Source: Ruminococcus sp. | Lineage (GTDB): Bacteria; Bacillota; Clostridia; Oscillospirales; Ruminococcaceae | Assembly (NCBI GenBank): GCA_015066665.1 | Contig: SVNX01000017.1 | Span: 1 to 51,239 of the forward strand | DNA: 51,239 bases | Reading direction: 5' to 3' | In this document: piece after piece, positions 27,629 to 30,799 of the stretch | Numbering within the stretch: the stretch's first letter is position 1 | How the letters are laid out: each line of letters begins with the position of its first letter | Notes under the pieces: generated by a model | What the model saw: only the letters and a program-made list of their open reading frames with translations | What the model was told of the DNA's origin: nothing | Databases searched by the model: none | Made by a program: the position numbers and the translations under genes

Positions 27629-28291
27629 TCATGCTGCCGCCGCCGCAGGCTCACGCTTTTTGGCAAGATACGGTACTCTTGCCACAATCAGTGCGGCAAT
27701 TGTCGTCAGAAGGATCTCCGGAATCATGTACAGGCCGTTGTAGAAGACCGAGTAAATCAGGGCGAGTTCTGTGCCGGAGCAGTGTGCCATGATCACATCG
27801 CCGATCGCATAGAAACCTTCCTGCGTGAAGAACCACTCCGCCCATGAGCCGAAGAAGAGCGCACCGGAAATGATGTGCACAAGATACCGCAGTCCCAGTG
27901 CCGTGAATGTACCCAGTCCCAGTGCAAGGGAGGGGGAGAAGCGCTTCCGGAAGAGACCGCCAAGTCCCAGTACCGTGTAGGCTGCCACATAGTCAAGCAG
28001 CACGATGCAAATGCCCATCCCGAGCACCTGCATGGTGGAGAGACCGTCCTGCGGCAGGAAGAAGCCGCGCACATTGCCAAAGCCGGTGGCAATCTGAATC
28101 AGGCTGAAGACAAAGGCGGAGAACAGCCCCCATTTCACGCCGTAGCGATAGGAGAGCAGCACGACCGGCAGCATGGAAGCGATCGTGATGCCGCCGCCGA
28201 ACGGCAGCTGGAACGGCTGGATCACCGTCAGCACTGCGGCAATGCCGAGCAGTACGCCGGTTTCGGTCAGTCGAAGCGTTTGGTTTTTCAT
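27629..28291 (-). CDS. thiT: thiamine-specific ECF transporter substrate-binding subunit
   Basis: 220 residues with six predicted membrane spans. GVLLGIAAVLTVIQPFQLPFGG at the N terminus, SMLPVVLLSYRYGVKWGLFS, the family block LDYVAAYTVLGLGGLF, and WAEWFFTQEGFYAIGDVI all fit ThiT, the S component that binds thiamine for the shared ECF energising module (encoded elsewhere). The true start is ATG 28291; the codon before is TTG. AAGGAT lies upstream. The TPP riboswitch just upstream confirms the substrate. Stop and next start are 13 bases apart. Confidence 0.95.
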   Translation of the reverse strand: MKNQTLRLTETGVLLGIAAVLTVIQPFQLPFGGGITIASMLPVVLLSYRYGVKWGLFSAFVFSLIQIATGFGNVRGFFLPQDGLSTMQVLGMGICIVLLDYVAAYTVLGLGGLFRKRFSPSLALGLGTFTALGLRYLVHIISGALFFGSWAEWFFTQEGFYAIGDVIMAHCSGTELALIYSVFYNGLYMIPEILLTTIAALIVARVPYLAKKREPAAAAA

Positions 28292-28313
28292 CAAATCATC
28301 CTTTCACGGGAGC

Positions 28314-28341
28314 AAAAAACGTCACCGGAAACCGATGACGC
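28314..28341 (-). terminator. riboswitch expression-platform terminator
   Basis: Minus strand CGTCATCGG-TTT-CCGGTGACG followed by TTTTTTG, between the TPP aptamer and thiT. Forms when TPP is bound and stops transcription. Confidence 0.85.
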
Positions 28342-28349
28342 AAAGAATC

Positions 28350-28432
28350 CATGTTTCCCTACGTCGGCATTATCCGCATCAGGTTATGGGTCGAAGCAAA
28401 TGCTTCCTCTCAGCCATGACAGCTCCCCTTTG
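28350..28432 (-). promoter_or_regulatory. TPP (THI-box) riboswitch
   Basis: On the minus strand in order: GGGGAGC, CTGAGAGGAAG, ACCC, AACCTGATGCGGATAATGCC and CGTAGGGA, the conserved THI-box blocks for the pyrimidine and pyrophosphate arms. It precedes thiT and a terminator hairpin, so thiamine pyrophosphate should switch the operon off. Confidence 0.97.
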
Positions 28433-28442
28433 TGTTGGTTCT

Positions 28443-28471: not shown

Positions 28472-28554
28472 GGCAGGGGGGCGGGAAAAGCGATGTGTAT
28501 GATGCACGCTTTTCAGCAGCAGTCCCATGAAATCCACGCCCATGGAGGGTCACA

Positions 28555-29605
28555 CAAGCCCCCCTTGTGCATTTTCCGCTCACAGAAGACGGTTTCAAAA
28601 GGCGAAAGCCTTTGGCGGCGGCGGTGCGCAGCACCGCCATCCATCGCCCCTTCCCTTCGGGAGCAGGGGGAGTCACAGCAGAGCCGCCCCCTTGTGCAGT
28701 CTGCCGCTCACAGAAGACGGTTTCAAAAGGCGAAAGCCTTTGGCGGCGGCGGTGCGCAGCACCGCCATCCATTGCCCCCTCCCTTCGGGAGCAGGGGCAG
28801 TCACAGCAGAGCCGCTCCCTTGTCATCTTCCGCTCACAGAAGGCGGTTGCAAAAGGCGAAAGCCTTTGGCGGCAGCGGTGCGCAGCATCGCCATCCATCG
28901 CCCCCTCCCTTCGGGGGGAGGGCAGTCACAGCAGCGCCGCCCCCTTGTGCAGTCTGCCGCTCACAGAAAACGGTTGCAAAAGGCGAAAGCCTTTGGCGGC
29001 GGCGGTGCGCAGCACCGCCATCCATCGTCCCATCTCTTCGGGAGCAGGGGCAGTCACGTCAGCGCCGCCCCCTTGTGCATCTGCCGCTCACAGAAGACGG
29101 TTTCAAAAGGCGAAGCCTTTGGCGGCGGCGGTGCGCAGCACCGCCATCCATCGCCCCCTCCCTTCGGGAGCAGGGGCAGTCACGGCAGAGCCGCCCCCTT
29201 GTGCATCTGCCGCTCACAGAAGACGGTTTCAAAAGGCGAAAGCCTTTGGCGGCGGCGGTGCGCAGCACCGCCATCCATCGCCCCTCCCTTCGGGAGCAGG
29301 GGCAGTCACAGCAGCGCCAACCCCTTGTGCATCTTCCGCTCACAGAAGACGGTTTCAAAAGGCGAAAGCCTTTGGCGGCGGCGGTGCGCAGCACCGCCAT
29401 CCAACGCCCCCTCCCTTCGGGAGCAGGGGCAGTCACGGCAGAGCCCCCTTGTGCATCTTCCGCTCACAGAAGACGGTTTCAAAAGGCGAAGCCTTTGGCG
29501 GCGGTGGTGCGCAGCACCGCCATCCATCGCCCCCTCCCTTCGGGAGGGGGTCGGGGGGAGGGCAGTCACGGCAGAGCCGCCCCCTTGTGCAGTCTGCCGA
29601 ACGAA
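28555..29605. repeat. eight tandem copies of a ~126-bp unit
   Basis: The marker CCGCTCACAGAAGACGG recurs with starts (at CACAGA) near 28581, 28709, 28835, 28962, 29089, 29215, 29341 and 29465, spacing 124-128. Each unit has hairpins AGGCGAAAGCCT and GGCGGTGCGCAGCACCGCC and a CCCTTCGGGAG hairpin, ending in CAGTCACAGCAGAGCCGCCC. A degenerate last edge lies near 29600. It lies between the thiT promoter and the promoter of the large RNA. Confidence 0.97.
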
Positions 29606-29669: not shown

Positions 29670-29698
29670 TTGACATTTCACAAAAGCCGTGGTATAAT
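29670..29698 (+). promoter_or_regulatory. strong sigma-A promoter of the large non-coding RNA
   Basis: TTGACA (29670-29675), 17 bases, TATAAT (29693-29698): perfect consensus boxes and spacing, with an A-rich stretch upstream. Confidence 0.85.
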
Positions 29699-29704
29699 AG
29701 AATC

Positions 29705-30260
29705 AAGATAAAGGAACTGCAGCACTTTATACAGGCAGAGCTTCCCATCGGGAACTAAGGCATGACCTTCGGTGGAAGCAATCGGTCGAAAAGGAGGCGA
29801 GCCCCGTGGAAAATATGGAATCATGGCAGCAGGCGGCTTCGCCGTCCGCAGTTAAGTGAATGGGAACAGACGGCTATCAGTGCATGGCGGGTTCCAAGTG
29901 AATGAAATCAATTCTGCGGATTTCGGTTGAGCAATGCCAATTCCTGTATGCGAACAAGTTTCAACGCCAGTGTACAGGAACGCGTGCATAGGACTAAACA
30001 GGCACCTGAAACTTTACATAGTATGCATTAGTTCGATTCTTCTGACTGGAGGGTTTCCCATGGAAATGTGATCCTGCCTTCAATCATCAAGGAAAGCTGG
30101 GATGCGATGTGAAAGTAATGGTTAATCGGATTTTAAAAGAACCCAGATAAAGGACGTGTTTTACCGATGCACAAAATGATGACCGCGGCTTGACCGCATC
30201 GATACAATTGAATAGAAGCAAATTCTCCCGGATATGTGTCTATCCGGGAGTTTGTGTTTG
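29705..30260 (+). ncRNA. large structured non-coding RNA (~555 nt), class unknown
   Basis: Bounded by a consensus promoter and a terminator hairpin, with no open frame longer than a few tens of codons on this strand. Visible helices: CTTCCCATCGGGAA near 29741, a GGCGGCTTCGCCGTCC stem-loop near 29833, TTCCTGTA (29940-29947) with TACAGGAA (29973-29980), GGTTTCC-CAT-GGAAA near 30053-30065, CGATGC with GCATCG (around 30164 and 30196). It is AT-richer than the repeat arrays beside it. It does not show tmRNA, RNase P, SRP, 6S or group I/II intron landmarks that I can recognise. Size and isolation recall large ornate RNAs such as ROOL, OLE or GOLLD, but I cannot assign it. A 17-codon frame with a ribosome site lies inside (29806-29859). 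Confidence 0.65.
30225..30260 (+). terminator. terminator of the large RNA
   Basis: CTCCCGGATA-TGTGTC-TATCCGGGAG followed by TTTGTGTTTG. Confidence 0.75.
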
Positions 30261-30262
30261 TA

Positions 30263-30754
30263 TCAGTGTTTTTTGATTTCGGGGAGGAGACTGTTGACGT
30301 CGACATAGTAATGGCGATAGTCCCCGTCCTTGCAGTAGACACGCACAGAGGCATCCATGAGGAGGGACGTCGGATCGAAGTAGATGTTCTGGCTCCGGAA
30401 AAGATGAATGGCACCCGTGACAGGATCTGTGAAGCAGCATTCGGCAAAGTACGGACAGCGGCCGTTCACACGGACATTGTAATTGGGCTGGACGCTGGTT
30501 ACTGTGGCAGTGATAAAGTGCCCTTCGGCAACAATCCGGCGGAGCAGCTTGCGTTTCTGCCAGCCAAAAAGAAGCATGGCCGTGCCGGTGAGCAGGAAAA
30601 TCAGCCCCACACCGCCGAAGATCAGAAGAAAAAGCCGGTCAGCCCCACGCAGCATAAGTCCCAGCAGGGCAAAAAACAGCCCGAGCGGTGCAAAAATCAT
30701 CCCCACAATGTCTGTGGCAGAAAAGGAAAATTTCGGTTCTGTCTGCTTGTACAT
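30263..30754 (-). CDS. small membrane protein of unknown function
   Basis: 163 residues. Two spans (about 16-36 and 43-65: GLFFALLGLML and LIFGGVGLIFLLTGTAMLL), then a soluble domain of about 95 residues with ITATVTSVQPNYNVRVNGR and VRVYCKDGDYRHYYVDV, a layout like the DUF3592 type (membrane hairpin plus small beta domain). No known function. Start at 30754 follows AAGGA at 9 bases. Convergent with the large RNA; single-gene unit with its own promoter. Confidence 0.75.
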   Translation of the reverse strand: MYKQTEPKFSFSATDIVGMIFAPLGLFFALLGLMLRGADRLFLLIFGGVGLIFLLTGTAMLLFGWQKRKLLRRIVAEGHFITATVTSVQPNYNVRVNGRCPYFAECCFTDPVTGAIHLFRSQNIYFDPTSLLMDASVRVYCKDGDYRHYYVDVNSLLPEIKKH

Positions 30755-30799
30755 GTGTATCAGTCCTTTCGTTGCGCGATTCACGAATCAGCCGATTTC

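Follow-up and report, generated by a model that had tools for sequence, protein, structure and literature searches.

A folded chromosomal RNA with serial mini-ORFs in a family of gut bacteria: a candidate for an undescribed, possibly ribosome-engaging RNA class

Introduction

Bacterial RNAs are usually sorted as messengers or as non-coding RNAs. RNAIII is an independent structured RNA that carries a translated small ORF, and, to our knowledge, the dual-function RNAs described to date carry one small ORF each. In the bar minigenes of phage lambda, a start codon behind a ribosome-binding sequence is followed by a stop within a few codons, and arrest or leader peptides of the TnaC type are short, carry a proline next to the stop codon, and can be encoded by an ORF that overlaps a helix. 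Coding by small RNAs is described as common (PMC5521070), and a survey of the human microbiome, according to its own account, applied an RNAcode filter and lists candidates of 27 to 219 bp (PMC8040213). Among the large structured RNAs, ROOL and GOLLD are described as carried by phages and prophages, in many cases close to tRNA islands (PMC12286853).

Here, we analyze a unit in a 51,239-nt stretch of DNA from Ruminococcus sp. (contig SVNX01000017.1; in the following, the window), for which a sequence-only reading had proposed a large structured RNA without a gene, belonging either to a class such as ROOL, OLE, or GOLLD or to a new one. Our comparison with related genomes confirms the prediction that positions 29670–30250 form a promoter-to-terminator RNA gene of about 550 nt without a long frame, and it is highly probable that this is a real RNA gene with translated mini-ORFs.

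Results

Boundaries of the RNA gene

The following features were assigned, with positions given in the window:

29670–29698, + strand: promoter, TTGACA (29670–29675), 17-nt spacer, TATAAT (29693–29698), TG before the −10 box; inferred start site at about 29705
29708–29730, + strand: hairpin P1, ATAAAG/CTTTAT, stem placed by eye
29742–29754, + strand: hairpin P2, TTCCC-ATC-GGGAA, read by eye
29793–29805, + strand: Shine–Dalgarno module A1, GGAGGCGAGCCCC, 5′ of ORF1; GGAGGCGAGTCC and close variants in other genera
29806–29859, + strand: ORF1, GTG start, 17 codons (MENMESWQQAASPSAVK), open in 31/31 genus sequences
29832–29843, + strand: hairpin P3, GGCG-GCTT-CGCC, within ORF1; 100% paired, tree-null P = 0.02
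29845–29920, + strand: helix P4, TCCGCAG (29845–29851)/CTGCGGA (29914–29920); 98% paired, two pairs with both-side changes
29941–29980, + strand: helix A, TTCCTGTA (29941–29948)/TACAGGAA (29973–29980); both-side changes, tested against a tree null
29958–30012, + strand: proposed pseudoknot helix K, GTTTC..GCC (29958–29968)/GGC..GAAAC (30001–30012); two parts, 100% and 90.5% paired
29985–30027, + strand: helix B, TGCATA (29985–29990)/TATGCA (30022–30027); 83.8% paired, tree-null P = 0.56
30048–30059, + strand: Shine–Dalgarno module A2, GGAGGGTTTCCC, 5′ of ORF2; GGAGGTACACTCC in most relatives; hairpin P = 0.25
30060–30071, + strand: ORF2, 3 codons (MEM); in 29/31 sequences, 3–9 codons
30109–30150, + strand: ORF3, GTG start, 13 codons (MKVMVNRILKEPR); in 29/31 sequences
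30167–30193, + strand: candidate ORF4 (MHKMMTAA), by eye behind an element like the last A module of other genera
30204–30214, + strand: conserved 3′ motif ACAATTGAATA, found in the genus and in two genomes of genus g16 (loci L137, L138)
30225–30250, + strand: intrinsic terminator CTCCCGGATA..TATCCGGGAG with a T-rich tail; arms conserved

The promoter boxes, which the sequence-only reading had described as perfect and 17 bases apart, are indeed so. Just one other 12/12 promoter exists in the 6 kb scanned, in which promoter-like sites on both strands number 11, vs. 2.8 ± 1.8 in shuffles. The hairpin anchor was located in 29 genus sequences, G000 among them, and each of these has a matching promoter upstream; the other three of the 32 sequences, in which no anchor was located, are left out of the count. 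The terminator, too, is as clear as it had been called, with a 10-bp stem at 30225–30250, a loop of 6 nt, and then TTTGTGTTTG. Its outer arms CTCCCG/CGGGAG are constant in 26 of 30 genus sequences, its inner part varies, and contig ends account for two of the four misses. The conserved 3′ motif takes the form AAAATTGAATA in G052, a genome of another genus.

As for coding capacity, just two + strand ORFs of at least 50 aa reach into 29700–30225, and both, with ends at 29711 and 29758, are read-outs of the repeats upstream. The statement that the unit contains no gene thus holds for long frames; it does not hold for serial mini-ORFs, which are present, and of which ORF3, and ORF1 across genera, appear to be under selection for translation. 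A GC-rich tandem repeat array (CGCTCACAGAAGACGGTTTCAAAAGGCGAAAGCCTTTGGCGGC...) lies at 28500–29600, directly 5′ of the RNA promoter, and was not seen in the RNA itself.

Comparison with known RNA families and mobile elements

Nothing credible was found within the unit by Rfam 15 at E ≤ 10, all matches being far below gathering scores. The same search at E ≤ 1 in eight genus relatives gave chance matches, again far below gathering scores, and, also at E ≤ 1, no match fell inside the RNA in eight loci from other genera, some of which hold only part of the RNA. The sequence-only reading had seen no landmarks of tmRNA, RNase P, SRP, or 6S RNA and had suggested such a scan; none of these models matches the unit. 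The identities tmRNA, RNase P, and 6S were rejected, as the unit has no match to their models and all three occur elsewhere in the genus: tmRNA is over the cut-off in 23 of 38 genomes, RNase P was found in 32/38, and 6S has E ≤ 0.001 in 33/38 (over the cut-off in 20). In genome G000, which is 77% complete, 6S was found, tmRNA was found below the cut-off only, and RNase P was not found. Over the whole window, the sole match at gathering score was a TPP riboswitch elsewhere (28338–28439, − strand; 54.5 bits, just over gathering), which has a perfect 12/12 promoter and fronts a thiamine transporter gene (Thia_YuaJ; 27629–28294, − strand). In the loci from other genera, the matches to a T-box leader (over gathering) and, more weakly, to 6S and an L20 leader were rejected because they fall outside the RNA. 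The 6S matches (L138, 2951–3143, − strand, 35.6 bits; L139, 604–792, − strand, 30.7 bits), from two other genera, are below gathering and divergent, and lie about 500–600 nt upstream of the mini-ORF RNA.

The proposed membership in ROOL, OLE, or GOLLD was not borne out, as there was no Rfam match and no phage link was found; the other option, a class of its own, is supported, with no credible Rfam match to the unit or its relatives. We found no phage or plasmid match to the RNA and no match of three specific patterns in viral contigs, a short viral pattern gave 84 matches, by estimate a chance-level number, and no tRNA was found in the window, tRNA islands being a frequent ROOL/GOLLD setting. 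The unit shares with ROOL, GOLLD, and OLE that it is a large structured RNA, and it has a palindromic loop like the kissing loops described for OLE and GOLLD (PMC12286853), but it differs from them in lacking an Rfam match or a detected phage link and in having selected mini-ORFs. The raiA-motif RNA (ModT) is likewise described as a structured non-coding RNA of Clostridia (PMC11706538), but the unit has no Rfam match and a different content. In the titles and abstract openings of open-access literature, we found nothing like this mini-ORF array.

Distribution in the genus

Absence of conservation in relatives had been named as an outcome that would speak against an RNA; instead, conservation is present. 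By blastn, the unit is single-copy in its own genome and has at least a partial match in 25 of 100 genomes (own included), which all belong to a single genus. Of 38 genus genomes, 31 are matched, once each, by a covariance model built on the central domain (R1), and a model of the 5′ domain (R2) matches 33/38 (own included), among them all 12 genomes with at least 90% completeness and at most 5% contamination. The five genomes without an R2 match are 72–84% complete, and second R2 matches, which are weak (E ≥ 0.001), occur in four. The core motif is found in 13 named records (Ruminococcus sp., Oscillospiraceae, Clostridia, or Clostridiales bacterium), and several of the record titles name sheep, goat, or roe deer gut. 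The window copy is among the more divergent ones, with an R1 score of 76 bits vs. up to 127, GTG starts of ORF1 and ORF3, and an ORF3 that ends in EPR.

Covariation and folding

The folding energy of the window sequence alone is not better than that of shuffles (z = −0.12), and since the single sequence is not unusually stable, the case for the RNA rests on comparison. An 8-bp long-distance pair, TTCCTGTA/TACAGGAA, had been read from the sequence. It corresponds to helix A, which covaries in relatives, with both-side changes in all 11 pairs of a model-fitted alignment of 31 sequences, an alignment that leans towards structure. In a sequence-only alignment tested against a tree-based null, in which changes are redistributed along the tree and near-identical rows are merged (31 to 27 and 28 to 26), P = 0.0025, the lowest value that the test can give, was obtained for helix A and P5a, and P6 and P3 are supported with P = 0.0075 and P = 0.02, so that covariation, whose absence would also have counted against an RNA, is found. 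No support was obtained in this test for P4 (0.16), P4b (0.07), P5 (0.96), the SD2 hairpin (0.25), helix B (0.56), and helix K (1.0); helix K is nearly invariant and therefore beyond the reach of covariation, and most of P4 also barely varies. In an all-pairs scan with the tree null, from which G013 (large insertion) and G011 (contig end) were left out and in which rows more than 97% identical were merged (29 to 27), one terminator pair was significant (E = 0) and was the only pair with E < 1; the helix A pair had E = 6.45. A switch pairing, TGCTAAGG/CCTTAGCA, 3′ of ORF3 was dropped because, by eye, relatives do not keep it.

In relatives, P4 encloses P5a and P6, and the final part of ORF1 contains its 5′ arm. 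Together with P3, these helices make up the 5′ domain, which folds similarly across individual sequences, as judged by eye, and whose energy is below the shuffle mean in 27 of 28 sequences (mean z −1.63). The energy of the central domain is not below that of shuffles (mean z −0.15; negative in 15/26).

The loop of P1 holds the palindrome CTGCAG (29717–29722). Perfect palindromes of 6 nt or more that begin between +7 and +13 are found in 28 of 31 sequences, with three lacking them, and have four different cores, CTGCAG, TTGCAA, TGCGCA, and TGTACA. A change from palindrome to palindrome is given as support for symmetric kissing loops in OLE and GOLLD (PMC12286853), and as similar changes are seen here, RNA dimerization is a possibility: the 5′ palindrome may be a self-kissing loop or dimerization site, and a DNA operator would look identical.

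Mini-ORFs in the genus

Three short frames, ORF1 to ORF3, occur at fixed places across the genus sequences. ORF1, which has a Gln run, is open in all 31 sequences, with 15–18 codons and once 29. Its substitutions within the genus, tested without G005 and G021 (both counted for length), are not significantly conservative, with 85 of 300 permutations as good; within the genus, RNA helices constrain ORF1. ORF2 sits behind GGAGG or CGAGG, and its shortness is indecisive, as frame +1, too, meets a stop within nine codons in 23/29.

ORF3 shows protein-level selection, judging from its codon changes. The two sequences in which it is missed (G028, G011) both end there with the contig. Its length varies from 10 to 17 codons, and its conserved C-terminal end stays in frame despite the length changes; third codon positions vary most, and the differing codons have a mean BLOSUM score of +1.00 vs. 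−0.33 ± 0.38 in column permutations, none of which was as conservative (0/300). A proline precedes the stop in 28 of 29 sequences, the exception being the window copy (EPR), and K-x-P is found in 25/29. By eye, ORF3 has no strong Shine–Dalgarno sequence. A C-terminal proline is described as able to stall termination in E. coli, with expression unaffected in one library study (PMC7246954).

For the candidate ORF4, there was no support on its own within the genus. Two divergent genus members fit the plan by eye: G021 has an ORF1 of 29 codons, MRSV as ORF2, and MKILKDLNPILEILKEP as ORF3, and G018 an ORF1 of 22 codons, MRTS as ORF2, and an ORF3 ending in LKRP. A naturally altered copy in G013 (L060) has about 280 extra bases between the Shine–Dalgarno sequence and the ORF1 start, and ORF2 was not found in it.

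Relatives in other genera and repeated modules

Outside the genus, R1 gave nothing credible in 347 genomes of the family, 394 of the order, and 391 of the class (overlapping samples); its matches in G164, G453, G530, and G091 were judged to be chance, the one in G164 lying inside a 334-aa ORF, which we take to be fliM. With R2, the RNA was found in 10 genomes of seven other genera of the same family. The family scan at E ≤ 0.01 gave 37 genomes, namely six of the own genus, 10 accepted (G046, G124, G164, G186, G207, G247, G250, G264, G278, G371), six judged by eye to be chance (G042, G139, G170, G305, G413, G415), and 15 counted neither way, among them G158, G201, and G228, in whose fetched sequence no ORF1 motif was found. 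As the E-values of accepted and rejected matches overlap, acceptance rests on the joint presence of a promoter-like sequence, ORF1, and a terminator-like hairpin. In all 10, the promoter-like sequence lies 116–290 nt upstream of the ORF1 ribosome site and the hairpin downstream. A pattern search, with matches in 3 of 224 genomes, added G052 from one of those seven genera; its third match (G521) was rejected, since by eye it lies in coding sequence.

The RNAs of the other genera are longer, at about 0.64–1.6 kb. ORF1 has 17–22 codons in all 12 cases read (the 10 accepted genomes, G052, and G018) and often opens with M-[ED]-x-x-E followed by S-Q-Q or similar, though not in every genus. Its substitutions across genera are conservative (0/300 permutations for the other genera; 0/200 for all, without G005, G033, and G021), in a test that gapped columns make approximate. 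ORF1 thus shows signs of protein-level selection only across genera.

Downstream of ORF1, many of these RNAs carry further modules, of two types. Type A consists of a purine-rich GGAG-N-GAGUCC-N element, followed by AUG or GUG and a very short frame, or by no start; its frames in other genera include MA, MK, MEM, MFK, MAL, and MQR. Type B has a GAAAG-like sequence and AUG, with peptides of 8–20 codons, the range searched. G186 and G264 have tandem copies of type-B modules (MIKLRRVFRDLNF/L), and similar peptides occur in G247; in the G186 and G264 loci (L145/L146), the units are about 163–178 nt apart, and every unit combines a 13-codon ORF, MIKLRRVFRDLNF/L, with a GGRGTGAGTCC element that lacks a start. 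As many as seven A elements, start-less ones included, are found in one RNA, and the module search found no further type-A modules in G207, G278, and G052. The peptides differ strongly between genera. Seen against this multiplication of modules elsewhere, the RNA in the window's genus seems to be an abbreviated form of the class.

Besides ORF1, the RNAs of six other-genus members contain 28 type-A elements, 17 with a start and 11 without. For the count of minigenes, near-identical sisters (G264, G164) and members without further A modules were left out, and the repeated MFK of G247 was counted once. A stop within three codons follows 11 of the 16 distinct A-module starts (ORF1 excluded) vs. 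14 of 189 other ATG/GTG triplets, a binomial p of 1.9e-5 in the same six RNAs that is partly post hoc, because the A-module definition was drawn after the short frames had been noticed. The axe-txe minigene is described with the same order of a start and then a stop within a few codons behind a ribosome-binding sequence (PMC8708949). Here, a stop within 2–3 codons behind such a sequence is what the 11/16 A-module starts have, and ORF2 has 3 codons in the window and 3–9 in the genus. Unlike the bar and axe-txe minigenes, these frames form arrays within a dedicated chromosomal RNA with conserved helices. As 11 of 28 elements have no start codon, the GGAG..GAGUCC element must do more than initiate.

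Genomic neighborhood

The neighbors, named by homology to window proteins and by eye, vary over 17 contexts (16 genus relatives and the window), with rarA/glyA in some and pncB-pncA in others. The nearest downstream ORF is convergent, on the opposite strand, in 12 of the 17, and in the remaining five, a mechanically called + strand ORF comes first, which is spurious in the window. Because the neighbors vary and the first downstream ORF is mostly convergent, we argue for an action in trans; with such neighbors, a downstream gene controlled in cis, as expected for a leader or attenuator, was not found. The unit resembles TnaC-type peptides in the proline adjoining the stop and in an ORF overlapping a helix, but differs in having its own terminator, no constant downstream gene, and mostly convergent neighbors. 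In the window, a convergent 173-aa protein without a Pfam match is encoded between the RNA and glyA (30263–30784, − strand).

Discussion

The observations may be brought together as an undescribed RNA class in one gut-bacterial family, a folded chromosomal RNA of 0.5–1.6 kb made of alternating modules, which would serve as a ribosome-engaging sensor or decoy and would perhaps dimerize via its 5′ palindrome. Many of the modules would be a ribosome-loading element with a start, followed by a near-immediate stop or by a basic peptide of 10–15 codons. We put forward this joint reading tentatively, as a little short of evenly balanced. On the narrower question of function, a ribosome-engaging role, as a translation-state sensor or a ribosome-decoy RNA acting in trans, appears evenly poised. 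What looks categorically new is the architecture, an array of minigenes in a folded scaffold, and it is to this, rather than to the proposed function, that the claim of novelty refers.

In the proposed mechanism, a folded RNA from an independent gene would present serial, very short frames to ribosomes, which would load at A elements, initiate, translate a few codons, and terminate. A ribosome that finishes ORF1 would have to open the 5′ domain, because P3 and the 5′ arm of P4 lie within this frame, and at ORF3 it would encounter a Pro-stop context, which is reported to slow release in E. coli. The shape or stability of the RNA, or its availability to a partner, would then change with the initiation and termination of ribosomes on it; alternatively, the RNA may simply occupy ribosomes and charged tRNAs. 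The enriched frames have too few codons for useful peptides, the modules multiply, and ORF1 translation and P3/P4 folding exclude each other; for these reasons, we favor ribosome engagement as the function. A single switch would account less well for the multiplying modules than a role in dosage or as a decoy. Against this reading stand mainly the start-less elements and the lack of an ORF1 signal within the genus.

Of the alternatives, the one that survives best, while still unlikely, is a dual-function regulatory RNA of the RNAIII kind, which would pair with target mRNAs in trans and for which the small ORFs would be a secondary product or a control. The size, the multi-helix structure, the own promoter and terminator, and the small ORFs all agree with it. 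C-rich elements that bind Shine–Dalgarno sequences are typical of such RNAs, and the constancy of the outer terminator arms (26/30) around a variable inner part may be seen in this light. RNAIII, VcdRP, and SgrS, as far as their descriptions go, combine an independent structured RNA with a translated small ORF, as the unit would, and the promoter, terminator, covariation, and coding selection seen in the sequence fit what defines a dual-function RNA, a translated ORF in an independently transcribed structured RNA. However, with this many ORFs, and with modules that recur within the RNAs of other genera, the class goes beyond a single small protein, and unlike the dual-function small RNAs, with which kinship was compared through Rfam, it has several ORFs, many of 2–9 codons, in a repeating module.

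It is rather improbable that the RNA is a micropeptide messenger, in which the product would be the type-B peptides, those of ORF3 and of its repeated equivalents (MIKLRRVFRDLNF, for example), and the folds would serve their translation. The selection on ORF3 at the amino-acid level and the repetition of type-B ORFs with similar peptides in G186, G264, and G247 would be expected from such a messenger, but the enriched class consists of frames of 2–3 codons (MA, MK, MEM, MFK), which are unlikely to give meaningful products, and the peptides diverge strongly between genera. We consider it more doubtful again that the unit is an ornate self-assembling structural RNA like OLE, ROOL, or GOLLD, with ORF-like stretches as by-products of conserved RNA motifs. 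Such an RNA would account for the 11 of 28 A elements without a start and for a palindrome that is kept in 28 of 31 sequences despite sequence change, as described for the kissing loops of OLE and GOLLD (PMC12286853); it is at odds with the selection seen at the level of codons in ORF3 and, across genera, in ORF1, with the enrichment of immediate stops, with the lack of an Rfam match, and with the three sequences that miss the palindrome. A leader or attenuator controlling a neighboring gene in cis is hardly tenable: leader-peptide-like ORFs overlapping helix P4, the Gln run of ORF1, and the terminator at the end would suit it, but the neighbors differ between clades, and in 12 of 17 contexts a convergent ORF comes first downstream.

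Under the ribosome-engaging reading, frames that start and stop almost immediately, in modules that multiply while promoter, 5′ ORF, and terminator stay, would mean that initiation and termination themselves are the function. Coding filters in RNA discovery, such as the RNAcode filter described in PMC8040213, can hide RNAs of this kind. If the reading is true, these RNAs would represent a new way of sensing or tuning translation.
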